64,000 nt of DNA, taken from assembly GCA_022841365.1 (NCBI GenBank), contig JALHRP010000005.1, forward strand, positions 1 to 64,000. The letters are read 5' to 3'. The notes under the pieces were generated by a model. The model did not search any database. It was given only the letters and a program-made list of their open reading frames with translations, and had not been told where the DNA came from. The DNA is from Chitinophagaceae bacterium. Lineage in GTDB: Bacteria; Bacteroidota; Bacteroidia; Chitinophagales; Chitinophagaceae. Shown one piece after another: positions 17,124 through 28,108 of the stretch (its first letter is position 1; each line of letters opens with the position of its first letter). A program made the position numbers and the translations under genes.

Positions 17124-17319
17124 ACACCAACCAAGGCGAAGCGGGGCAATTGTTTTACGTCGCCCCTGGCGACGAATACTGAACTGTGGTATTAAAGATA
17201 AAATTTTATTCAAAAGCCTAATAGATAAATGTCAGCCGGTACAGAAGCTAAATAGAATTACAGGTGATGACCGACGCTTTGCGTCGCCCCCTGCTGCCGC
17301 AAAACTGCCTGTTGTGTGT
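17124..17319. repeat. attC-like inter-cassette site A
   Basis: Long structured site at the far end of the cassette row. The right core is GTTGTGTGT (17311-17319), the start of the lipoprotein cassette. The left side holds ACACCAAC and a G-rich arm. The interior contains two small hairpins: CGTCGCCCC/TGGCGACG and CGACGC-TTT-GCGTCG. Its central part of about 155 bp is nearly identical to that of site C. The left arm is degenerate, and the row may have decayed here. The ORF predicted across it (16984-17343) is rejected. Together with the flanks described above it accounts for the 415-bp gap. Confidence 0.68.
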
Positions 17320-17331
17320 TCGTGCTTCTTG

Positions 17332-17766
17332 TCAAAAGAGTAACTCAACTAATTCCTCGTCATATTTAAAATTTGTTACCGTCCAACCACTGGATGCCTT
17401 ATATAGTGTAAAGTCAAACTTTAAATAGTATTTGTCAAACTTGAGAATGTAAAAACGCTTAGCAATAAAATCTTTAATTTTTCTTTCTGTGATAAACTCG
17501 TAAGAAAGCATTTTTCCGTACGCTGGAAAGTAATTGTCCATTTGGTTGTCAATTGTCACTTGTAAGGTGTCAATTGAAGATGGAGTCATAACTGTATTTT
17601 GTTTGAGAAGCTGCAAAGCCTCATGTGTCTTGCCTTCAGAAAATAATTTCATAAAGGTGTCGCAAACTTTGTCAAGACGTTGTTTGTCTTTATCGACGGT
17701 TTGATTTTTTTGTCCGCAAGAAGTAAGAGTGAGTAAAAGAAAAGCAACAGTCAAAAAATTTGTCAT
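17332..17766 (-). CDS. Cassette-borne lipoprotein, unknown
   Basis: The ATG at 17766 gives a lipoprotein signal (MTNFLTVAFLLLTLTSCGQ); the longer track start adds an implausible N-terminus. The mature part of about 125 residues resembles small periplasmic folds of the DUF4878/NTF2-like kind: a helical start (DKVCDTFMKLFSEGKTHEALQLL), then strands ending SSGWTVTNFKYDEELVELLF. It is the only gene of a cassette bounded by the perfect 9-bp inverted repeat GTTGTGTGT (17311) / ACACACAAC (17823-17831). The family is not certain. Confidence 0.68.
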   Translation of the reverse strand: MTNFLTVAFLLLTLTSCGQKNQTVDKDKQRLDKVCDTFMKLFSEGKTHEALQLLKQNTVMTPSSIDTLQVTIDNQMDNYFPAYGKMLSYEFITERKIKDFIAKRFYILKFDKYYLKFDFTLYKASSGWTVTNFKYDEELVELLF

Positions 17767-17822
17767 AAGTGTCGATTTGATTAAGTCGTTGTTGAATTCA
17801 AGGATAGTGTCGCCATTGCATG

Positions 17823-18027
17823 ACACACAACGAACAGGTATTGCCGAAGTGCAGGAAATAGAATTCCGTCCGCCCGGCTAACTGCTGCTGAATAAAGATA
17901 AAAAAGTTGATGATAAGAACTACAGCTAAATTACTAACGTCAAGCTGGATATGAAGCTAAATTGAAAAACAGAAGTTGAAACACGGCTTCCGTCAGCCTG
18001 CATTTTGGCAATACCCATGTTGTACGT
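17823..18027. repeat. attC-like inter-cassette site B
   Basis: Site between the lipoprotein cassette (ending ACACACAAC, 17823-17831) and the methyltransferase-operon cassette (starting GTTGTACGT, 18019-18027). Inner arms pair over about 20 bp with three mismatches: GGTATTGCCGAAGTGCAGG at 17837-17855 against CCTGCATTTTGGCAATACC at 17997-18015. The AT-rich interior holds the AAAGATA and AAGCTAAAT words shared with the other sites. Confidence 0.78.
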
Positions 18028-18085
18028 TCGCCCTTCTTCGTGGTCATCTACAATGTGGGGCTGTGTCGCACCTTAGAGTGTTGCC

Positions 18086-18174
18086 TGTGCGTTGGCACAA
18101 GGCAGGCTCTTTTGCAAGGTTAGCTTTTGTGTGTCGGCTTTGTGTGCCTTGCAAATGTGCCTGACTTGGTGTGT
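18086..18174. repeat. 89-bp direct repeat, copy 1 (downstream of operon)
   Basis: Matches 23692-23780 at 86 of 89 positions. It is also internally palindromic: CAGGCTCTTTTGCAAGG near the left pairs with CCTTGCAAATGTGCCTG near the right. This copy lies a few bases past the methyltransferase stop; copy 2 lies upstream of the operon's first gene. Confidence 0.85.
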
Positions 18175-18177
18175 CGG

Positions 18178-19209
18178 CTATTTAGAAGCTAAATGCTCTA
18201 ATAAATGTTTTTTAATATTGTCTGACTGATAATAACTAAATTTTGGAGGCAATGCGTTACCAATAAGCAAAGCCAGATTTGCTTTTGGTATATCACTTGG
18301 AAATTTATAGTCAGAAGGGAATGATTGCAGCATTGATGCTTCTCTTGCTGAAATGTTACGATTTTGTTCTGGATGCAGAAACCGTCCTTTAGATGGGTTT
18401 AGACAACCACCAGTTATAGTTGTTGAATAATCATCCCAGCGTAACCTGCCATATACATCATTAAAGCCAATGTTTTCACTTTCATGGCATTTAAGTAAAT
18501 ATTGTTTTGGTAAATCTTTCCTGCTGCCACCGTTTTTTGGAGTTAACTCTATTCTCTTTTGCACAGAAGGAATATGCGTAGGAAATATTTTATGAATTGG
18601 GTCGGAGGAATTTTCAGGTAATGGTAAATGTTCTATGGTTTGCCTTACGGTTTTCTTTTCATTCAATGGTTCTGCAACTTTTATTGTGCCTAACCTTGAA
18701 CCAACCAATACCAATCTTCTTCTGCTTTGAGGAACACCATAGTCTTTAACATTTACCACTTTAAAATCAACTTCATATTTTAATTCGTATTTCAAAATCC
18801 TTACCGCTTTTTTAAATAAGTCATATTCAACAAGTCCTGGCACATTCTCCATCATTATTGTGTAAGGTTTAAGAGCTTTTACTAACCTCACATATTCCAT
18901 TATCAAATTATTTCTGTCATCATCAACAGGTGTAACTCTATTAAGCCTTCTTATAGATGAAAATCCCTGACATGGGGGGCAACCGGCTAAAAGATGAATT
19001 GTCTTGCCTTTTAATTTCCTTTTGATTTCAGCAATAGAAACTTTACGAATATCTTTTGTAATAACAGAAGTTTGGGTGTGATTTAACCGATATGCCTTTG
19101 ATGCAATTTCATCAATCTCAAATGCTACTTTTGTTTTAAAGTTGGCTTGGTGCATACCTTCTGTTAACCCACCGCAGCCACTGAAAATATCTATAGATAT
19201 TAGTTCCAT
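18178..19209 (-). CDS. DNA (cytosine-5) methyltransferase
   Basis: C5-MTase that transfers methyl from SAM to cytosine in a specific DNA sequence. Motif I is IDIFSGCGGLTEGM at residues 6-19, motif IV with the catalytic Cys is GCPPCQGFS near 80, motif VI is MMENVPGL near 120, and motif VIII is VPQSRRRLVLVG near 165. A target-recognition region and motif X (ALLIGNALPP) follow. The length of 343 residues is normal for Dcm/M.HhaI-type enzymes. The ATG at 19209 overlaps the previous stop (TAATATG); the track start at 19218 is a TTG. Last gene of the five-gene operon; no adjacent endonuclease is recognisable. Confidence 0.93.
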   Translation of the reverse strand: MELISIDIFSGCGGLTEGMHQANFKTKVAFEIDEIASKAYRLNHTQTSVITKDIRKVSIAEIKRKLKGKTIHLLAGCPPCQGFSSIRRLNRVTPVDDDRNNLIMEYVRLVKALKPYTIMMENVPGLVEYDLFKKAVRILKYELKYEVDFKVVNVKDYGVPQSRRRLVLVGSRLGTIKVAEPLNEKKTVRQTIEHLPLPENSSDPIHKIFPTHIPSVQKRIELTPKNGGSRKDLPKQYLLKCHESENIGFNDVYGRLRWDDYSTTITGGCLNPSKGRFLHPEQNRNISAREASMLQSFPSDYKFPSDIPKANLALLIGNALPPKFSYYQSDNIKKHLLEHLASK

Positions 19210-19210
19210 A

Positions 19211-19711
19211 TTAAACAACTAATTTTTTAGGAATATAGCCTACACATTCAAATAATGCTTGAATTTGAGGAAACTGAGAAGGAACATCTCTTGCTGTATA
19301 TCTTCCAGAATCCAAATTAAAGTGAACTTCAATTTCGCCTGTTTCTTTTTTCAGAAACCATAATTCCCCACCAATAATTGCGTCTCCACCACCTGTCATA
19401 TTGGGATGTGAAGCATGCCCTCTTTTGCAGTCAACAACAGTAGCTTCACGAATCATACGAATTTGATTATCCTTCAAAACCCACAAATACATATTTCTTA
19501 CGGGAATATTGCTATAATCATGTTTTTGAGAACTGTCTTTTTCATTTTTAATATCCTCCATATTTGTGGCATAAAAACAATTATCCGGGTATTTGTTATC
19601 GGATGCGTCATAGTATTCTAAAAGTAATCCTTCACCTTGCAGAACTGCTTTTAATGGAGGATGTGGCTCACCAGCGGTTACATAAATTTTAAGGCAATCA
19701 TCTTTCATCAT
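19211..19711 (-). CDS. Unknown protein, operon gene 4 before the methyltransferase
   Basis: ATG at 19711 (or 19708, three bases on), chosen because it overlaps the preceding gene by only 11-14 bp; the track start at 19753 overlaps by 56 bp. About 166 residues, soluble. A glycine-rich turn (PNMTGGGDAIIGGELWF) leads to a beta-hairpin ending HFNLDSGRYTARDVP. This SG(R/H)Y-type ending reminds me of modules in some toxin-like proteins, but I cannot assign a family. Between the receiver-like protein and the methyltransferase it is the best candidate effector of the operon. That is inference from position. Confidence 0.72.
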   Translation of the reverse strand: MMKDDCLKIYVTAGEPHPPLKAVLQGEGLLLEYYDASDNKYPDNCFYATNMEDIKNEKDSSQKHDYSNIPVRNMYLWVLKDNQIRMIREATVVDCKRGHASHPNMTGGGDAIIGGELWFLKKETGEIEVHFNLDSGRYTARDVPSQFPQIQALFECVGYIPKKLVV

Positions 19712-20588
19712 TAACAAATGTTTTTGAAGTTCCTTTTTCCATCGTTGTTTCAAGTATTGCTAAATCATAATTTTTTAAAGCATAAATCGGAGTCAGCGGC
19801 TTTTCTACTAATTTATCTTCGTAAAATTTATGAAGTTCAGAACCTGTTTCAGAATAAATTCTTGTGTTTGTAGTATTGATAAAAAATTTCAGTCCTGATT
19901 GCTCAAACAGTTTCTCGATTTTGCTTTCGGAGATTACCATTTCATTTTCTTTAATAAAATTCATCATATAATCCTGCCCCAAAATTGATTCAAGCATCCA
20001 TATTCTATTTGGGTTTGGAAGAAAAATTGACGGGGAAAAATTGATAGTTTCTCCATTAAATTCAAACTCAATTACTAGTTGCATGTATTGAGATACCACT
20101 TCTTCGATTAAATTATCTTCAGCGTTTTTTTCAATTTCATCTTTATTTTTTTGATAAACCCTCAATCCTCTTTCCGGATGGCTATCTCTTCTTCCTTTAA
20201 TTCTTTCTTCAATGTTTTCAATCAAATCATTTCCTGAAAGGATATAGATTTTTGCATCAGTAATTTCTAACAATGTGTCAATATAATTTTCAGCATCTCC
20301 GCCAGCACCTAAATCCCAATCCAACTGAATTAGGCTTGGGCGATACGTTTGCTCTCTTATATCTCTTATTAGAAACGAAGGATTTGTGTAACCAGAGTAA
20401 TGAATGTTTTCAAATCTCTTGGTTTTTTTTAATGAGCTATCTAAGAAGCGTTTTACAGCTGGGTCATTCCATTCATTAGAACCAAGAAAATGTCTAATAT
20501 TTTCTTCTCCGAATCTTCGTGTATCATCTTCAATACCCGAATCTATCGGAAGAATTAAATCATCTGCGTAACATACATTGTAACTCAT
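19698..20588 (-). CDS. Receiver-like protein with atypical REC domain
   Basis: A 296-residue soluble protein. An acidic pair near the N-terminus (CYADDLILP), a putative phospho-acceptor strand (PSLIQLDWDLGAGG, about 105-118), a Ser after the next strand (KIYILSGND) and a later Lys (VYQKNKD) are laid out like a response-regulator receiver with an insertion of about 60 residues after the first strand. The remaining 150 residues match nothing I know and have no DNA-binding motif. Its ATG overlaps the kinase stop as ATGA, so the two are translationally coupled and probably partners. REC assignment is moderately supported. Confidence 0.72.
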   Translation of the reverse strand: MSYNVCYADDLILPIDSGIEDDTRRFGEENIRHFLGSNEWNDPAVKRFLDSSLKKTKRFENIHYSGYTNPSFLIRDIREQTYRPSLIQLDWDLGAGGDAENYIDTLLEITDAKIYILSGNDLIENIEERIKGRRDSHPERGLRVYQKNKDEIEKNAEDNLIEEVVSQYMQLVIEFEFNGETINFSPSIFLPNPNRIWMLESILGQDYMMNFIKENEMVISESKIEKLFEQSGLKFFINTTNTRIYSETGSELHKFYEDKLVEKPLTPIYALKNYDLAILETTMEKGTSKTFVNDER

Positions 20589-23281
20589 TTTGCTTCTTCT
20601 TTTCGTGATGGAACTTTTTCAAAATCAATTGTTAACTGTGCTCCGGTGACAAAATCTTTTAATCTTTCACGGTTGTGTGTTTCATAAATGTCTCCTTTCA
20701 TTGCTTTCATATAATACTTGCATATGTATAAACCTAAACCGCTAGGGTCTTCAGTTTTCATAGAATAGCCGGGTTCAAATAAATTGTCTTTTATTGCTTC
20801 TGATATCCCGTCACCGTTGTCTGCAAAAATTAAGGTTCTTTCTTTTTTATCTAATTTAATTTTAATTTTTCTTGGCATATTGTGGCTAAATGGAAGCCAA
20901 AAAACACTGTTATCAAAAAGGTTTGTCAATACCTGATTCATCGTACCATATCTTCCATAAACAACAAAATCTTCCTCTGGATTAAATTCAAATTCTATAT
21001 TCTGCTCTTCTAGCTTTCTTTTAAAAACTTCTGCAGCAAATCTTATTGATTTAGAAATAGGAAATTCAACAGCTTTTTCGTTTCTAATTGCACGCAAAGG
21101 ACTTAACCTTTTTAATTCAGATTGCAATGATGCTGAAGCATTCTTTAAGTCTTCTAATTTTACTTTATCAATTACATCTTTCTTCAATAGCTCTGAAATT
21201 CCAGAATAAAAATTTGCTGTTATTTTTGCAATTTCATGAACTGAAACAGCAACCGAAATTCCATAGGCGGCTTTCTCTTTTAATAAATCTTGAATCTCTT
21301 CCATTAGCTCCAAACTTGCTTTAAGGTTCTTCAATGAATTATCAAGATTTATCAGTCTATCTTTTCGTTTGCTTACATTCTCTACAACTAAGTGAAATAA
21401 GGAATGAGGGTCTTGCTCAATTGGATAATTATCGCCAATATTTTTTAATAATTGTCTTTGTTGCTTTACTGCGTCATTTAGCTTGACAGGGTCTCTTGTT
21501 ACCCCCTTTGTTAAATCAGTGTACTTATCTCTAAATTTTATGTATTCTATTTCAACTAATTTGATAGCGTTTTTAACGAGTTCAATAAAATCGAGGGATT
21601 GCCTATTGCCGACTAAGCCTTCCCGGCTGGTTTTATCAATTAAAAATTCATTATCTAGTTGGTCTATTTCGATGTTAGCAACCATATACCTATAGTTTAG
21701 CCTATAAGCTTGCTTAGATTGTTTTTTTCCTAGTCCATAAACATCCATTTTACTTGCATATTTTGCAGGTAAAATCAAGGTGTTATCTCTGTAAAGAGAA
21801 ATTCCACCATGCTCATCCAGATAATCAAATAAGTCATTATATCCTGGATTCTCAATCCATTCTTTATCTCTATACCAAATATCAAAGTGAAAATAGAATA
21901 CTCCGCATTTCGGACTTCCATTTTTAAGCCAGTATGGATTGCCAAGTTTTAAATCATAATTTTCATATTTTATTTCATCAGGGGGTAGCGGAATATTTTT
22001 AGGCGGTTTAAATTCTATTACAGCCTCTTCAATAATCCCTTTTTCATTTACTAACCCATAGTAAGAAAATATTGGTGTGTATTCTTTGTAAATAGGCTCT
22101 TTTTGCAGTTTCCCGACTTGCGGACATGAAAAATTGACTATAAATGGAGGTCTGATTTTATCAGGGTTGGGATTGGGAGAGTTAAGTTGATTTATTGAAT
22201 CATTAATTTCCCTGATAACATCTTCATTCCAAACAAAATTTTCCCTTCCTCCATATATGATAAGGCGTGTTCCTGAATTACTCTTACCATAATCCCTGCT
22301 TAAAGCTTGTCGGGTTAGTGAAACACTCACCGAACTTAAATCAATTAAAGTATTTTGGTCGTTAGGATTAAAATCATCCCAGTTTATTTTTAAAGCAAGT
22401 TCATAATCAGTATCTGCTGTTTTTGTAGTAATAATTAGATTTCTGCCCAAACGGTTGGTTGCAAATCTTCCAACACCCTTTTCTCCAATTGGTATTCTTC
22501 CTTTATACTCATTTTTGAGTTGAGAAATTATCGCTTCATAGTAGCTAAGTTTACCTTCCTCAAATGCTCTTGCTTTTTCCTTTTTTATTTTCTCCTTGAT
22601 ATTCGTTTTTAACGAAGTAGCTGGTCGCAACCAGCCATCTTCAATAATTTCTCTCGTCATTCCCATCCCATCATCTTCTACTATAATAACAGGACCATCA
22701 TACTGATTGAATTCATAATTTGATTCATCTACGGATGGTAGAGATTTTATTTTTTCAATTTTTACATTGCAATATGTTGCCCCAGCATCTAAACTATTTT
22801 TAATTAACTCTAAAATACCTACTTGCTCTGACTCAATTAGTTGCTCACCCAAAACTTGGATAAGGTGAGCATCTGCTTTGAAAGTCAATAAAATCCCTCC
22901 ATCTAGGCAAATTTCATCAAGAACCTGAGGCGTAATTTTTCTTACTGCATTCTGTGCGTTGTAACTTGCTCCAAATTCCCGCTGGTTTCCTTTTTCATCT
23001 CTGAATGGAACAGGCTTTGAAAATGCTTTGTATTGACTTATTTCAGCAAAATAGAAACCTTCATTTGTTTTGTCCTCAAATACACGGCTGATTTTTCCTG
23101 AACCAAAATATTCGCCTTTACCATTTGACGGCGGCTCATAATAAACAAACTCTATATTCTCTGATTCTGATAGTTGCTTAAAATATTTTTTTGGAAAATG
23201 ATAGTACTTCCCCGTAAAATTATTATAAGTAGAATCCTGATTTCGATTTTGAATAAGTGCAAAACAATTTCTTTCTTCCAT
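20585..23281 (-). CDS. Dual-GHKL protein: MORC/Hsp90-like ATPase plus histidine kinase
   Basis: A soluble 898-residue protein with two GHKL ATP-binding domains. The N-terminal one (about 140-330) has ELIKNSLDAGA, DDGMGM and GEKGVGRFATNRLG, as in MutL/Hsp90/MORC-type ATPases reported in restriction-modification loci. The C-terminal third is histidine-kinase-like: an H-box candidate VSVHEIAKI near 700, NQVLTNLFDNSVFW, DNGDGI and GLGLYICKYYM. Residues 20-95 (YYHFPKKYFKQL, YEPPSNGKGEYFGSGKI) look like a PUA/EVE-type reader module, with low confidence. No membrane segment is visible, so any signal sensed is cytosolic. Overlaps both neighbours by ATGA junctions. Confidence 0.87.
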   Translation of the reverse strand: MEERNCFALIQNRNQDSTYNNFTGKYYHFPKKYFKQLSESENIEFVYYEPPSNGKGEYFGSGKISRVFEDKTNEGFYFAEISQYKAFSKPVPFRDEKGNQREFGASYNAQNAVRKITPQVLDEICLDGGILLTFKADAHLIQVLGEQLIESEQVGILELIKNSLDAGATYCNVKIEKIKSLPSVDESNYEFNQYDGPVIIVEDDGMGMTREIIEDGWLRPATSLKTNIKEKIKKEKARAFEEGKLSYYEAIISQLKNEYKGRIPIGEKGVGRFATNRLGRNLIITTKTADTDYELALKINWDDFNPNDQNTLIDLSSVSVSLTRQALSRDYGKSNSGTRLIIYGGRENFVWNEDVIREINDSINQLNSPNPNPDKIRPPFIVNFSCPQVGKLQKEPIYKEYTPIFSYYGLVNEKGIIEEAVIEFKPPKNIPLPPDEIKYENYDLKLGNPYWLKNGSPKCGVFYFHFDIWYRDKEWIENPGYNDLFDYLDEHGGISLYRDNTLILPAKYASKMDVYGLGKKQSKQAYRLNYRYMVANIEIDQLDNEFLIDKTSREGLVGNRQSLDFIELVKNAIKLVEIEYIKFRDKYTDLTKGVTRDPVKLNDAVKQQRQLLKNIGDNYPIEQDPHSLFHLVVENVSKRKDRLINLDNSLKNLKASLELMEEIQDLLKEKAAYGISVAVSVHEIAKITANFYSGISELLKKDVIDKVKLEDLKNASASLQSELKRLSPLRAIRNEKAVEFPISKSIRFAAEVFKRKLEEQNIEFEFNPEEDFVVYGRYGTMNQVLTNLFDNSVFWLPFSHNMPRKIKIKLDKKERTLIFADNGDGISEAIKDNLFEPGYSMKTEDPSGLGLYICKYYMKAMKGDIYETHNRERLKDFVTGAQLTIDFEKVPSRKEEAK

Positions 23282-23499
23282 CAGTTAATAGTTTTTTTAG
23301 TTGATGAAAGTAAATCCCTAATATCTACATTTAGATGCCGAGCAATTTCAGAAAGCGTATCAACTGGCGGCTGCATATTATTAGTACACCACCTGGAAAT
23401 TGTAGATTCATTCATTCCAAGTTTTCCAGCTAACCACTTACTGGTTTTGTTCTGTTCTACAAGAACTATTTTAATTCTATTGATTGCTTTAACTGCCAT
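23281..23499 (-). CDS. XRE-family helix-turn-helix regulator
   Basis: A 72-residue Cro/C1-type DNA-binding protein. The HTH lies in SKWLAGKLGMNESTISRWC (residues 20-38), followed by the usual stabilising helices (PVDTLSEIARHLNVDIRDLL). It is the first gene of the operon and overlaps the dual-GHKL gene by the ATGA junction. It is likely the operon's own repressor, comparable to controller proteins of restriction-modification systems; the operator was not identified. Confidence 0.88.
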   Translation of the reverse strand: MAVKAINRIKIVLVEQNKTSKWLAGKLGMNESTISRWCTNNMQPPVDTLSEIARHLNVDIRDLLSSTKKTIN

Positions 23500-23691: not shown

Positions 23692-23780
23692 TGTGCGTTG
23701 GCACAAGGCAGGCTCTTTTGCAAGGTCGGCTTTTGTGTGTCGGCTTTGTGTGCCTTGCAAATGTGCCTGACTTGGTGCGT
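23692..23780. repeat. 89-bp direct repeat, copy 2 (upstream of operon)
   Basis: Second copy of the palindromic 89-bp repeat at 18086-18174 (three substitutions). The 550-bp gap upstream of the regulator (23500-24052) holds this repeat, a G-rich stretch at 23598-23690 and site C. No gene is seen in it. The operon promoter should lie in 23500-23690. Confidence 0.85.
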
Positions 23781-23838
23781 TGGGTTGTGTCGGCAAAGTC
23801 ATGGATGCTTAAATGTTTTCAGGATGTCGTTTAGGGTG

Positions 23839-24045
23839 ACGTACAACGTTCACAGCTTTGCGGTCGGCGGGGCAATTGTTTTACGTCGCCCCGGGCGACG
23901 ACTGATGAGCTGTGATACTAAAGATAAAATTTTATTCAAAAGCCTAATAGATAAATGTCAGCCGGTACAAAAGCTAAATAGAATTAAAGGTGATGACCGA
24001 CGCATTGCGTCGCCCCCGCTGCCGCAAAACTGCGTGTAAGGTGCA
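23839..24045. repeat. attC-like inter-cassette site C
   Basis: Site between the methyltransferase-operon cassette (ending ACGTACAAC, 23839-23847) and the YD-protein cassette (starting GTAAGGTGCA, 24036-24045). Inner arms pair well: CAGCTTTGCGG near 23853 against CCGCAAAACTG at 24022-24032. The interior has the CGTCGCCCC/GGGCGACG and CGACGC/GCGTCG hairpins, and about 155 bp nearly identical to site A. ORFs predicted across it are shadows of this structure. Confidence 0.8.
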
Positions 24046-24052
24046 GTAAAAA

Positions 24053-24832
24053 TCACTCATAGCTTATTTGGTACGTTGTCTTTTGCGGCGTTTTGCTTAT
24101 TGAACTTTCCCATGTATCGCTTATTAATAAACCCTTGTCATTGTACTCGAATAATGTTGTCGATGAAACCCCGTTTGAAGATTTTTCATATAGCTTGGTC
24201 AGCTTACCTGCGTCATTATAAGAGTATGTCAAAGTAATTGTTGTGTTGAAATAATAAGCCTTTGTCTTTTTTTCTATTAACTGTCCGTTGACGTTGTATT
24301 TATAATTAACTCGTTCTTCCTTTCCAATTGTGTTATTTGATTTGTCTTCCTGAACTAAAAGACCTTTGTCATCATACTTATACTTTGTCACTGAGTTTCC
24401 CATTGTACCTGATGTCTTCGTCTCAGAAATTTTATTGCCTTTGTCGTCATACTCAAATGTCCATGTGGCATAAACCTGACCAAACTGAATGTATTCCTTT
24501 TTTGAAAGTTGATTCTTGTCGTTATAATAATATTTTGATGTTGAATTTATGTCACCACTACTTGTGTACGTCCGTTCCTCAATAAGTTGTGAGGAGTCGT
24601 TATAGAAAAGTTCTCTGTCAACCTGAAGCTGTTTATTGTCATTTGGAGAACCTTGTTTAATGAAGTTTCCTTTGTCGTTATAAAACTCGGTGTATTTAAT
24701 CTTGCCGTCGCCGTCAATTGTTGTAATTGACTTGATTTTGAATTTTATAATGTCGGGCTTACTAATTTCCTGTCCAGCAGAAACCTTAGCAAGAAAAAAG
24801 CAAAGCAGAATTAAAAAGATGTTTGATTTCAC
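24053..24832 (-). CDS. Secreted YD-repeat-like protein in a cassette
   Basis: A 259-residue exported protein with a signal peptide (MKSNIFLILLCFFLAKVSAG). The mature part is a run of about ten RHS/YD-like beta-hairpin repeats of about 20 residues (YNDKGNFIKQG, YNDKNQLSKKEY, YDDKGNKISET, YDDKGLLVQED, YNDAGKLTKLY, YNDKGLLISDT). It is far shorter than RHS toxins and has no C-terminal toxin domain; small MORN/YD-type surface proteins are a better comparison. Single gene of a cassette bounded by a 15-bp inverted repeat with one mismatch (24036-24050 / 24843-24857). Confidence 0.78.
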   Translation of the reverse strand: MKSNIFLILLCFFLAKVSAGQEISKPDIIKFKIKSITTIDGDGKIKYTEFYNDKGNFIKQGSPNDNKQLQVDRELFYNDSSQLIEERTYTSSGDINSTSKYYYNDKNQLSKKEYIQFGQVYATWTFEYDDKGNKISETKTSGTMGNSVTKYKYDDKGLLVQEDKSNNTIGKEERVNYKYNVNGQLIEKKTKAYYFNTTITLTYSYNDAGKLTKLYEKSSNGVSSTTLFEYNDKGLLISDTWESSISKTPQKTTYQISYE

Positions 24833-24847
24833 GGGTTGTCAATTTAT

Positions 24848-25050
24848 TGCACCTTACGTTAAAGCATTGGCGATGTGGCGGCATTCTGTGTTTCGTCCGC
24901 CCAGTGCCGCTGCTGATTAAAGATACAAAAGCTCATTGTTTATTCTGCTGCTCGGCGTTATTCGTCTGCCGAAACCAAAGCTGACTAGCGAACAAAAAGC
25001 TGAAAATATATTCGTCGCCCCGCCATATTGCCAATGCAATGTTAGGCACA
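24848..25050. repeat. attC-like inter-cassette site D
   Basis: Runs from TGCACCTTAC (24848-24857) to GTTAGGCACA (25041-25050). Inner arms pair over 17 bp with two mismatches: GCATTGGCGATGTGGCGG at 24864-24881 against CCGCCATATTGCCAATGC around 25020-25037. The right core GTTAGGC fits the classical integron consensus GTTRRRY exactly. The interior is AT-rich with AAAGATA and AAAAAGCTGAA words shared with other sites. Confidence 0.8.
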
Positions 25051-25057
25051 GTGTTTT

Positions 25058-25813
25058 TTACCAATGCTTTCGTTTTTCTGTCACAACAACCAAATACTTT
25101 TTGTCAAGGTTATTGTTAATGTATGAAACAGCACTCATAAACATACCATACCGATTCATTGAATTTTCTCTTTTGCTATCTCCAACCCATTGCTCATATT
25201 TTAAATCAAGCTCGTCAGCATTTATACAGGACTGTTTAAGATTTGTCAGGTCATAGACTTCTCTTTCGCTATTTGAATCTAACTCTGTCAAGCTGAGAGG
25301 TTGTTTAAAAATGAATGACATTAGCCGAATTAGCTCGTCTTGATTCTCTGCATATACTGATTCAAAACCCTGTTCGTCAACATCTGTAACGTAAGCTTTG
25401 ATAAATTTGTCTTCATTTAATAATATGGTCGTGTCAAGTGTATTTGTTGCTACAAAGTAAATGTCCATAAATAAGTCGGCTAAGTTGTCAAGAAGTGAAA
25501 CTGTTACTGACTCAGCTTGCTGACTATTTGGAATTTCAGAGCCTTCAATGTTATGATTAGTTGTCCATTGTCGCCCTAAAAATATACCCAATTTCTGAAC
25601 GGCTTCATCTAATTCTTCGCCATTGTTTAACCTTTTGGTTAAGTCTTGTACTAATGGTTTAGTCCGTCTATTGAAGTCTAAAAGGTATTTTGGTTGTCCG
25701 TTTTCAAAAACTACCCACTCGTCAATTGAAAGTTCGTAAAAAGGAATTGCTCTGAATTGTCCGCCAGAGTTTTGAAATAAATATGATTCTGTCTGTAAGG
25801 TAACGGTCTCCAT
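25058..25813 (-). CDS. Cassette-borne protein of unknown function
   Basis: A 251-residue soluble acidic protein without signal peptide or membrane segment. Visible stretches are an N-terminal beta region (SYLFQNSGGQFRAIPFYELS), a helical middle (LLDNLADLFMDIYFVATNTL) and a C-terminal helical part. No family is recognised. Single gene of a cassette bounded by GTTAGGCACA (25041) and TGTGCCTAAC (25819-25828). The start codon lies only 5 bp inside the cassette end, so expression probably depends on a promoter outside or within the site. Confidence 0.72.
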   Translation of the reverse strand: METVTLQTESYLFQNSGGQFRAIPFYELSIDEWVVFENGQPKYLLDFNRRTKPLVQDLTKRLNNGEELDEAVQKLGIFLGRQWTTNHNIEGSEIPNSQQAESVTVSLLDNLADLFMDIYFVATNTLDTTILLNEDKFIKAYVTDVDEQGFESVYAENQDELIRLMSFIFKQPLSLTELDSNSEREVYDLTNLKQSCINADELDLKYEQWVGDSKRENSMNRYGMFMSAVSYINNNLDKKYLVVVTEKRKHW

Positions 25814-25818
25814 AACAT

Positions 25819-26027
25819 TGTGCCTAACGTTCAGGCATTTGTGCTGTTGGGGACTTCATCTATTCGTCGCCCCCGGCGACGGATGCCGAACAAACAACTA
25901 AAGTACAAAACATATTCTGTTGCTTAATAGTAAAAGTCAAGCTGGGACAAAAAGCTGAATAGCCTTACTGCTGTTGAACCACGCTTTGCGTCGCACCCCA
26001 ATAGCACAAATGCGGCTGTTGGCTGCT
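25819..26027. repeat. attC-like inter-cassette site E
   Basis: Runs from TGTGCCTAAC (25819-25828; GCCTAAC is a perfect RYYYAAC) to GTTGGCTGCT (26018-26027). Inner arms pair over 18 bp with one mismatch: GCATTTGTGCTGTTGGGG at 25835-25852 against CCCCAATAGCACAAATGC at 25996-26013. The interior carries a CGTCGCCCCCGGCGACG hairpin. It is the clearest of the five sites. Confidence 0.83.
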
Positions 26028-26040
26028 GCTCTACTTTTCG

Positions 26041-26829
26041 TCATAGTTGTTGCTTTAGTTTTATCAGCGTCCTCTCAACCGCTTTGAATGTGTCTTGGTT
26101 ACGAATATCAATCTCAAAAACTTTTTTTCCGTTCACTTCAATTCGGTAAATGAAATAGTCGTCACGCCAGTCAACTTGAGTAATTTTTATTTGATTGTTT
26201 CCTTTCTCAAAGGTCAGGGAGTCAACCATGCCGCTGCTGTCAAATGGTGAAAGTTCATCGCTGTCAATTAGAAGTTGGTATTCGTTTTTAGTGAAAAGCT
26301 TTATTGCTTGTTTCTTTAGTTCTCCAAAGAATGTTGGTCGGCTGTGGTCTGGTCGATTACCAAATTTCTTTTCAAAATCATCATCTCTTAATTGCTCAAT
26401 TCTCTTTACATCAATCCAGTTGTCTGTTGTTAGAAAAGTTTTGTATCGCTTAAATAAGTTTTCTGTATTAGTCAATACACCGTTTAATCCTGTTGTACCT
26501 CCAGCGTAGTAATCAAAATGTTCGTATTTGTTATTACTTTCCAAAATGGCTAACGACTCAAATCCGATGCAGTTATCCTTGTCGCTGTACTTTGCAGGTT
26601 GTCCATTTATAAGCCGCCTGATTTCACAATGAAACCAAGTGGTGTCACCACAAATCTCTAATTGCAGTTTCGAAGTGTCATTACGATAAACCAGAAAGTG
26701 CATGGCTTTAAAATCCGGACGTTGTTCGGTTTTGATGAGTTGAAAACCGTATTCAGTAGTCAAGAAACGAAATGAGTTCTTAATATCGTCAAGTGGGGTT
26801 TTGGTATTAAAAATGTCAAGCAATCCCAT
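26041..26829 (-). CDS. First-cassette protein of unknown function
   Basis: A 262-residue soluble protein, no signal peptide. The N-terminal half contains strands and aromatic residues (FHCEIRRLINGQPAKYSDKD). The C-terminal part resembles a small alpha/beta domain (QVDWRDDYFIYRIEVNGKKVFEID). No family is recognised. Its cassette is the one nearest the recombinase, bounded by GTTGGCTGCT (26018) and AGCAGCCAAC (26863-26872). By integron logic this would be the most recent insertion and the best expressed. The role is unknown. Confidence 0.72.
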   Translation of the reverse strand: MGLLDIFNTKTPLDDIKNSFRFLTTEYGFQLIKTEQRPDFKAMHFLVYRNDTSKLQLEICGDTTWFHCEIRRLINGQPAKYSDKDNCIGFESLAILESNNKYEHFDYYAGGTTGLNGVLTNTENLFKRYKTFLTTDNWIDVKRIEQLRDDDFEKKFGNRPDHSRPTFFGELKKQAIKLFTKNEYQLLIDSDELSPFDSSGMVDSLTFEKGNNQIKITQVDWRDDYFIYRIEVNGKKVFEIDIRNQDTFKAVERTLIKLKQQL

Positions 26830-26965
26830 TTGTTTGATTGTTTAGAAATGTCGCCAAAGAGTAGCAGCCAACACTAAATTATGCGCCACTCCTCAAAAAA
26901 CCAAATTTTCCAAATGTTTGATTATCAGCATGAGTTATGTTGCCTTTTTGGATTGTTGTTAAACA
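26830..26965. other. Recombinase-proximal junction, attI-like region
   Basis: Holds the end of the first cassette (AGCAGCCAAC, 26863-26872) and then about 95 bp with no paired arm before the recombinase stop. Unlike sites A-E it has no long palindrome, as expected for an attI-type primary site rather than attC. Equating it with attI is inference from position. Confidence 0.45.
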
Positions 26966-26985
26966 AAAGGCGACATGTCGCCTTT
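26966..26985 (-). terminator. Perfect 20-bp palindrome at the recombinase stop
   Basis: AAAGGCGACATGTCGCCTTT overlaps the recombinase stop codon by two bases and is followed on the minus strand by TTG and a short T-rich run. It could terminate recombinase mRNA before the cassettes, or be a protein-binding palindrome. Confidence 0.55.
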
Positions 26986-28108
26986 ACCATTCAATGGTTC
27001 CCTTTTCCCAAATATCGTCAAGCGGACTGCTGATGTTTACAAGTTTTTCTCGTGTAACATGGAGGTATCGTTCGGTAGTTTTAATGCTAAAATGCCCTAG
27101 AATATCTTTTATAAAACGAATGTCAACCCCTTTTTCAAGTAAGTGTGTGGCAAAACTATGTCGCAGGCTGTGAAAACTTACATGTTTCTGTATGCCGGCT
27201 TTTTCTTTTGCTCTTTGAAAAACCTTTTGTGCCGTACGAGAAGGGTAGGGCTCGTTTTCTACTTCACCTTCAAATAGAAATGTCTTCGGTCTTTTCTTTT
27301 GTTCTTTCAGGTAAGAACGGAGTACATCTAGAAGTATAGGGCTTAATGTTACATATCTGTCTTTCTTTCCCTTCGCTTTTTCAATCAGAATCTGCATTCG
27401 ATCACTATCTATATCACTCATTTTTAAACGAACAGCTTCACTCACACGTAGCCCTGCACTGTATGCAGTAAACAAAATGGCTTTATGTTTTTTGTTTGTA
27501 ACAGCATTAAATAGCCGGGCTATTTCCTGTTCTCCCAAGACCTTGGGGAGTATGATATGTTTTTTGGGCCTTGGTATCTCCCAAAAAAATTTCTCTCGTT
27601 TCAATACCTGCTCATAATAAAACTTCAACGCATTCAACCTGCTGTGCAACGTATTCTCCGACAGCTGCAATTTTACCACACAATACAGCATGTATCGCTT
27701 CAAATGTTCTGGAGTTAAATCCTGCACATGAAGGTCTTTCAGCAATTGTAATAATTGCATAAACTCATTTCGGTAGGTTTGTAAAGTGCTCTTACTGTAT
27801 TTCTTTAATGCCAGTTGTTCCAGATAGAGTAACAACTGTTCTTTGTTGTTGGCCGATAGCCGTATGGATGATGTTTGTACTTTTTGCTGTTGTATACTTA
27901 ATGCAGTGGCGGGTTCTATTCCACATTTTTTCCGATTTTCTTCATTGTCTGGCAAATGCCATCCTTTTAAGCTGCTGCTCCAGCGGGCATCTGCTACTTG
28001 TTTAATGCGTTGGTTCCATGCGGTATTATGTGCAAACTGTACGAGTATTCTCGACTTTCCTCTGTATACTATCAGTTGGTAATTGATCTTACTCATGGCG
28101 CTGTTCAT
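26984..28108 (-). CDS. Tyrosine recombinase with extra N-terminal module
   Basis: A 374-residue site-specific recombinase. A SAM-like core-binding domain (about 85-175) precedes the catalytic domain with Arg221 (SAGLRVSE), Lys near 246 (EKAKGKKDRY), H-x-x-R at 313-316 (HSLRHSFA), His339 (LGHFS) and nucleophile Tyr348 (ERYLHV). The set is complete, so it should be active. Residues 8-62 form an extra module (ILVQFAHNTAWNQRIKQV, then WSSSLKGWHLP) that looks HARP-like. I see no IntI-type insertion between the Lys strand and the H-x-x-R box. An ATG at 28096 is an alternative start. All neighbouring cassettes read away from its 3' end. Confidence 0.92.
   Translation of the reverse strand: MNSAMSKINYQLIVYRGKSRILVQFAHNTAWNQRIKQVADARWSSSLKGWHLPDNEENRKKCGIEPATALSIQQQKVQTSSIRLSANNKEQLLLYLEQLALKKYSKSTLQTYRNEFMQLLQLLKDLHVQDLTPEHLKRYMLYCVVKLQLSENTLHSRLNALKFYYEQVLKREKFFWEIPRPKKHIILPKVLGEQEIARLFNAVTNKKHKAILFTAYSAGLRVSEAVRLKMSDIDSDRMQILIEKAKGKKDRYVTLSPILLDVLRSYLKEQKKRPKTFLFEGEVENEPYPSRTAQKVFQRAKEKAGIQKHVSFHSLRHSFATHLLEKGVDIRFIKDILGHFSIKTTERYLHVTREKLVNISSPLDDIWEKGTIEW

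Follow-up and report, generated by a model that had tools for sequence, protein, structure and literature searches.

The attC sites of integrons are nearly palindromic, yet just one strand is used, and the choice of that strand is the central puzzle of integron recombination; the known integrons decide by extrahelical bases together with a special domain of the integrase IntI. The same question is raised by a window of 64,000 nucleotides (nt) from a Chitinophagaceae bacterium (contig JALHRP010000005.1 of assembly GCA_022841365.1), in which five cassettes lie on the 3' side of a tyrosine recombinase gene, the cassette genes and the recombinase gene all being on the minus strand. The host genome is Lacibacter-like, with Lacibacter luteus as its nearest named relative and several relatives placed in the same genus. 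The intergenic sites of this array, about 200 nt long, have the layout of an integron attC, namely R'' (RYYYAAC-like), a short spacer, L'', a long loop, L', another short spacer and R' (G^TTRRRY). A sequence-only reading of this DNA had pointed to paired cassette ends with a fixed mismatch at position 11, and had taken this mismatch as a sign that a folded single strand is recognized. Each pair of ends belongs to a single cassette and consists of its R' box plus extension, at the start, and its R'' box plus extension, near the end; the two meet only in the excised circle.

The anatomy of the sites and the cassettes shared between arrays reveal an integron-like cassette array whose recombination sites are attC-like. 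What is conserved at position 11 is the identity of the bases too (A on R', G on the complement of R''), and not unpairedness alone. We consider it rather probable that this fixed A/G difference, or an adjacent bulge, breaks the symmetry of the palindrome and leaves the bottom-strand hairpin as the only good substrate.

Position 11 of the cassette ends

In the three cassettes nearest the recombinase, the ten matches, the mismatch at position 11 and the four further matches were found exactly as described. Read on the minus strand, R' and the reverse complement of R'' are GTTGGCTGCT-A-CTCT and GTTGGCTGCT-G-CTCT in cassette 1, GTTAGGCACA-A-TGTT and GTTAGGCACA-G-TGTT in cassette 2, and GTAAGGTGCA-A-TAAA and GTAAGGTGCA-G-TAAA in cassette 3 (coordinates in Table 1). 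Cassettes 4 and 5, which the earlier claim did not include, are variants with one extra base on the R'' side followed by the same A/G difference: GTTGTACGT-C-A-CCCT against GTTGTACGTTC-G-CCCT, and GTTGTGTGT-C-A-TGC against GTTGTGTGTTC-G-TGC, respectively.

We then turned to a larger set of cassettes. Under strict thresholds, the genomes that contain a relative of the recombinase numbered 152 of 399 sampled for the family, 49 of 299 for the order and 14 of 396 for the phylum; the regions beyond their recombinase genes were retrieved and scanned for cassettes. Hairpin-based attC detection provided a first set of 83 cassettes. A second detector required a 9-base match between the two ends of a cassette (positions 1-9), with GTTR as bases 1-4 and G as base 8, and another cassette of this kind at attC spacing. 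This search yielded 306 unique cassettes at 64 recombinase loci in Bacteroidota, with 3, 0, 0, 0 and 0 in five shuffled controls. Two looser procedures were dropped: an early hairpin detector gave many chance matches and was superseded by the spacing-restricted detectors, then by own-end matching with shuffled controls, and unfiltered own-end matching was too noisy (473 shuffled pairs against 1050). In many drafts, the recombinase gene lies at most a few hundred bases from a contig end on the array side (e.g. G374:C149, G041:C20, G121:C25), and many arrays are therefore hidden in draft genomes.

Position 11 was paired in 1 of the 83 cassettes of the first set, against 57 at each neighbour. Among the 306 unique cassettes, the numbers paired at positions 10 to 16 were 206, 6, 228, 232, 217, 186 and 40; the neighbours of position 11 are thus paired in 67-75%, and position 11 itself in 6 cassettes. 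The expectation that this position would be unpaired more often than its neighbours in homologous sites was borne out, and the larger set did not turn it into a paired or variable one. The R' base at position 11 is A in 300 of the 306 cassettes and the R'' complement is mostly G. Loci in which every cassette is mismatched number 59 of 64 for position 11, 5 for position 10 and 2 for position 12. Of the 41 cassettes from 13 loci outside the family, 1 is paired at position 11, and all 41 have A there in R'. The constancy of place and bases despite differing stems, first seen in three cassettes, also extends to the regular class (ten matches, mismatch, four matches), where the difference is A/G in 144 of 148 stems with 88 different R 10-mers and 57 different outer 4-mers. 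Given this diversity, position 11 is kept while the rest of the stem changes. The consensus of the R' box is GTTRNNNGYNA, and the putative recombinase-binding box would measure about 11 base pairs (bp).

A paired A11 is rare in the absence of a bulge: it was found in 3 of 190 stems without a bulge, against 14 of 70 with a one-base R''-side bulge before it (Fisher p = 1.2e-6). Moreover, an uninterrupted, defect-free 15-bp stem occurs in only 1 of the 306 cassettes. Altogether, these results indicate that the A/G difference or the bulge, or both, is kept in nearly all cassettes. Further out, positions 12-15 are identical in place in 143 of 306 own-end pairs, against 2.8% when partners were dealt from other cassettes, and the two ends of a cassette therefore covary. 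When a shift was allowed (one base either way, two on one side), at least three of the four outer bases matched in 270 of 306 pairs, against 35.5% of dealt ones. The outer 4-bp stem is real, and the own-end match stops after position 15 (position 16 is paired in 40 of 306).

This sharp end could be expected if the whole arrangement were a functionless by-product of cassette birth or repair, one arm having been copied from the other with a single fixed difference left behind. Such an origin appears very improbable to us, since drift or conversion would erase a difference that is instead kept, with the same bases, over the 88 10-mers and 57 outer 4-mers and across families. One would also wonder whether any cassette would show the same pattern. 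In a control limited to 17 distinct class 1 plasmid cassettes, whose listings were read by eye, the own-end match covers 7 to 13 bases in most. An R stem that, where long enough, runs uninterrupted through position 11 would be a class 1 trait, and the present sites do not share it: position 11 is paired in 11 of 17 class 1 cassettes against 6 of 306 here. The A/G difference was found in 0 of 17, and the A/G rule is thus not general to cassettes. For classical attC sites, the R match has been described to extend to 9-11 consecutive nt (PMC2727003).

Strand choice and the two arms of the hairpin

What could such a difference bring to the recombination? In the mechanism that we propose, one strand of the excised circular cassette would fold, R'' pairing with R' and L'' with L'. 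If the boxes were perfectly palindromic, the hairpins of the top and bottom strands would be equivalent; in classical attC sites, owing to the symmetry of the site, the hairpins of the two strands differ only by stem interruptions (PMC2727003). An A/G difference at position 11 would break this symmetry in both arms. The bases of the plus (bottom) strand at this position are G and T, which form a wobble pair, and the "mismatch" is consequently unpaired only on the minus (top) strand. In the predicted folds of the circular junctions of window cassettes 1-3, the outer stem of the bottom strand is continuous through the G.T wobble, whereas the top strand opens at A.C. The bottom-strand circle hairpin is predicted to be the more stable one in 62 of 83 cassettes, with means of -35.8 kcal/mol for the bottom strand and -33.9 kcal/mol for the top strand.

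The earlier proposal of folded-strand recognition through an unpaired base is therefore retained in part. The ends are attC-like, the place is conserved and it distinguishes the hairpins of the two strands, but on the bottom strand, the one expected to recombine, the base is neither unpaired nor extrahelical. We infer that a folded single strand is recognized. On the bottom strand, T.G would wobble, both arms would stay paired and the consensus T would remain on the strand cut by the enzyme; on the top strand, A would face C, with the C in the strand that would be cut. The pairing comes from the folding, and its effect on the enzyme would follow from a preference of the recombinase for T at position 11 of the cut strand. 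About one site in four would achieve the equivalent through its one-base bulge on the R'' side. Only in the circle can the outer 4-bp stem form, and cassette insertion is thus the most likely use of the complete 15-bp arm.

The L arm was analyzed in 124 confidently placed attC sites. Of the 83 stems that extend to the 16th base after R'', 69 have an A/G difference there, and a T/C difference occurs at the 7th base in 58 of 123 stems. Most other L-arm positions are nearly always paired, with the exception of the 13th base (A/G in 31 of 120). The commonest register comprises 55 sites from 33 loci; in it, L'' aligns with R' as an 11-base box and A/G falls at position 11 of this L box in 49 of the 55 sites. 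In the same register, R' has G at 8 and A at 11 in 100% of sites, the R'' complement never has A at 11 and the L' complement has G at 11 in 95%, so that R11 and L11 are the same place of a putative recombinase-binding unit present in two arms. Extrahelical bases in the L'' arm, a feature of canonical integrons, were not found: 82 of 124 L arms reach position 18 bulge-free, and the bulge check covered these 82 arms, in which the differences are substitutions. Since the recombinase is devoid of the additional IntI domain that reads extrahelical bases, the A/G substitutions probably replace such bases as the mark of strand and fold.

Could each end instead be a double-stranded site bound on its own, by the recombinase or by some other protein, with A required at R' and C at R'', the mismatch in the hairpin being a mere consequence? 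The base of each end is indeed conserved on its own, as seen above for R' and the R'' complement, and the sequence before the first cassette in 43 loci resembles the left half of a dif-like double-stranded site. Separate binding is nevertheless unlikely in our opinion, because it leaves unexplained the within-cassette covariation of positions 1-10 and 12-15, the occurrence of a paired A11 mainly alongside a bulge and the return of the same difference at the same place of the L arm. Another explanation is mechanical, position 11 acting, at the border of the 11-bp box, as a hinge or a point of weakness for synapse assembly or hairpin re-opening, and not as a strand mark. It would account for the acceptance of either a mismatch or a bulge and for a defect at the box edge in both arms, and recombination efficiency does depend on stem structure in classical systems (PMC2727003). 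A plain weak point, however, would take any mismatch, whereas G stands opposite A in 144 of 148 regular stems, and G.T is the least disruptive mismatch on the bottom strand; we thus hold a purely mechanical role to be improbable.

On the other hand, several points weigh against a strand mark at position 11. In the 55-site register, T/C at L box position 2 (28 sites) favors a wobble on the top strand and A/G at L box position 8 (23 sites) removes the consensus G from L'', so the mismatches do not all point one way. The gap in folding energy between the strands is modest and depends on the parameters, and cassettes share ancestry, which makes our counts those of non-independent events. Strand choice itself is deduced, the use of the bottom strand being carried over by analogy with IntI, and the bases A at R' and C at R'' could each be demanded by double-stranded binding. 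A uniform rule in which the bottom strand always wobbles was rejected, given that T/C at L-arm position 2 wobbles on the top strand. The A/G rule alone does not account for the L-arm differences at positions 2 and 8, which might prevent cleavage by the enzyme at L.

An integron-like system and its recombinase

The cassettes are arranged in tandem and bounded by attC sites with RYYYAAC/GTTRRRY core boxes, both ends being defined for 195 sites. In predicted folds, these sites form a stem-loop composed of an R arm, an L arm and an unpaired spacer. Two attC length classes, 105-141 and 172-211 nt, were observed, sometimes in one array (e.g. L058, L116, L190). A candidate attI is provided by a conserved stretch with a consensus of about TTNCGTATATTTANGT^GTT, located just before the first cassette in 43 loci and mostly 86 to about 220 nt beyond the recombinase gene; judged from its sequence, it corresponds to a canonical attI. 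These 16 nt before the first cassette are close to a dif-like 11-5-11 layout. Near-identical cassettes occur in different arrays, and the shared stretch begins at most 4 nt from G^TT in 24 of 74 matches. A cassette stretch of 1577 nt is present twice, at 100% identity, in one array (L202), and L178 and L202 share cassette sequence that is 98.4% identical over 984 nt. Arrays L066 (Chitinophagaceae; 16692) and L189 (another family of the class; 1296) share a cassette that is 99.8% identical over 998 nt, which on sequence grounds points to a recent transfer between families. Shared cassettes that start exactly at G^TT support the mobility of these units.

The recombinase scores 181 bits against TIGR02249, the integron integrase model, and thus falls below its cut-off of 265. 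Its structure model is of moderate confidence (mean predicted local distance difference test score 77.5, predicted template-modelling score 0.50). The best fold matches are VchIntIA (PDB 2a3v; E 5.5e-15) and XerA, the latter being the closest solved sequence relative. Like IntI, the protein displays an SP(L/F)D motif near its C-terminus, and this motif, the best fold match and the array adjoining the gene bring it close to IntI (TIGR02249; VchIntIA). Two features set it apart. The additional domain around patch III, which is treated as defining for IntI (PMC9668308, PMC2426708) and contacts the extrahelical bases (PMC3053210), was not found in the alignment with VchIntIA, where 20 residues stand against about 64, and the aligned relatives are alike. 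Conversely, the recombinase possesses, in its N-terminal 80 residues (27869-28108), an extra domain of about 65 residues with invariant W, S, W and P, which is not in IntI. The predicted fold of this domain is beta-beta-alpha-beta-beta-alpha; it has no Pfam match, and its top fold match, SMARCAL1 HARP (E 0.54), is not significant and can serve as a lead only.

How does this system compare with those already described? The sites share with integron attC sites (VCR, attC-aadA7, class 1) the cassette layout, the GTTRRRY/RYYYAAC boxes, an own-end complementarity of more than 7 nt and a folded stem whose interruption distinguishes the strands. They differ from them by the fixed A/G (or bulge) at R-arm position 11 and the L-arm A/G, in place of extrahelical L'' bases, by the extra outer 4-bp stem and by the lengths of the two site classes. 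As in the integrons of Treponema, the recombinase gene points towards the array, but the integrases there were identified as IntI and the position-11 rule is not reported (PMC3607928). In the accessible text on an "integron-like" subgroup of simple tyrosine recombinases (PMC8138268), neither cassette arrays nor attC sites are mentioned for those members that lack the insertion. With Xer/dif the system has in common its XerA relative and the geometry of the attI half-site (11-bp boxes around a short centre); it is distinguished from it by cassette arrays and hairpin sites, in place of chromosome dimer resolution.

Among Bacteroidetes, the only complete integron reported with IntegronFinder 2.0 is that of Salinibacter ruber (PMC9024848). 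Our literature search, outside of which lay most subscription papers and preprints, found no account of the present system. As the additional domain and the extrahelical bases were both looked for and not found, we do not class it as a canonical integron; it is integron-like in its working, yet a variant new to integrons. One could go further and assume a widespread, Bacteroidota-specific integron class, so far overlooked, whose recombinase would read the folded bottom strand through the G.T wobble that both 11-bp boxes have at position 11 and not through extrahelical bases; we give this assumption an even chance. Searches that require the additional IntI domain would be the reason for the oversight. 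Integron-like gene capture is in any case shown in Bacteroidota. With the domain missing, most L arms bulge-free and a different mark fixed across families, strand choice becomes testable here by single-base swaps.

Features of the window array

Table 1. Coordinates of the recombinase gene, putative attI half-site, cassette ends, attC sites and cassette genes in the window (all on the minus strand).
Feature	Coordinates	Strand	Description
Tyrosine recombinase	26984..28108	-	374 aa, integron-integrase-like; Phage_integrase match
Putative attI left half	26873..26888	-	TGGCGCATAATTTAGT (minus strand), directly before cassette 1; conserved stretch in relatives
Cassette 1 R' box + extension	26858..26872	-	GTTGGCTGCTACTCT; position 11 (A) = 26862
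Cassette 1 R'' box + extension	26018..26032	-	AGAGCAGCAGCCAAC; position 11 (C) = 26028
Cassette 1 attC (R''-L''-loop-L'-R')	25822..26024	-	
Cassette 1 gene	26041..26829	-	262 aa, no family
Cassette 2 R' box + extension	25814..25828	-	GTTAGGCACAATGTT; position 11 = 25818
Cassette 2 R'' box + extension	25041..25055	-	AACACTGTGCCTAAC; position 11 = 25051
Cassette 2 attC	24851..25047	-	
Cassette 2 gene	25058..25813	-	251 aa, no family
Cassette 3 R' box + extension	24843..24857	-	GTAAGGTGCAATAAA; position 11 = 24847
Cassette 3 R'' box + extension	24036..24050	-	TTTACTGCACCTTAC; position 11 = 24046
Cassette 3 attC	23841..24042	-	
Cassette 3 gene	24053..24832	-	259 aa, RHS/YD-repeat protein
Cassette 4 R' box + extension	23833..23847	-	GTTGTACGTCACCCT; bulge variant
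Cassette 4 R'' box + extension	18019..18033	-	GGGCGAACGTACAAC; one extra base, then A/G difference
Cassette 4 attC	17825..18025	-	
Cassette 4 genes	18178..23499	-	C5 methyltransferase, two proteins without assigned family, 898-aa protein with two GHKL ATPase domains, small helix-turn-helix protein
Cassette 5 R' box + extension	17817..17831	-	GTTGTGTGTCATGCA
Cassette 5 R'' box + extension	17311..17327	-	AAGCACGAACACACAAC
Cassette 5 gene	17332..17826	-	164 aa, lipoprotein-like

At the end of the array, the attC beyond the R'' of cassette 5 appears shortened on its far side. With five genes over about 6 kb, cassette 4 is of unusual length, and its gene set is possibly a defence or modification module not yet catalogued. 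A hairpin-capable repeat of about 90-95 bp, present in nearly identical copies at 18089-18180 and 23695-23790, lies near both ends of this cassette, on either side of the gene module, and could be the signature of an insertion into it. Finally, the long attC loops are 92-93% identical across different cassettes and contigs despite differing boxes (17141-17312 and 23850-24040 in the window, 36277-36459 on contig 39 of the same genome), and the loop sequence seems to be conserved or exchanged.

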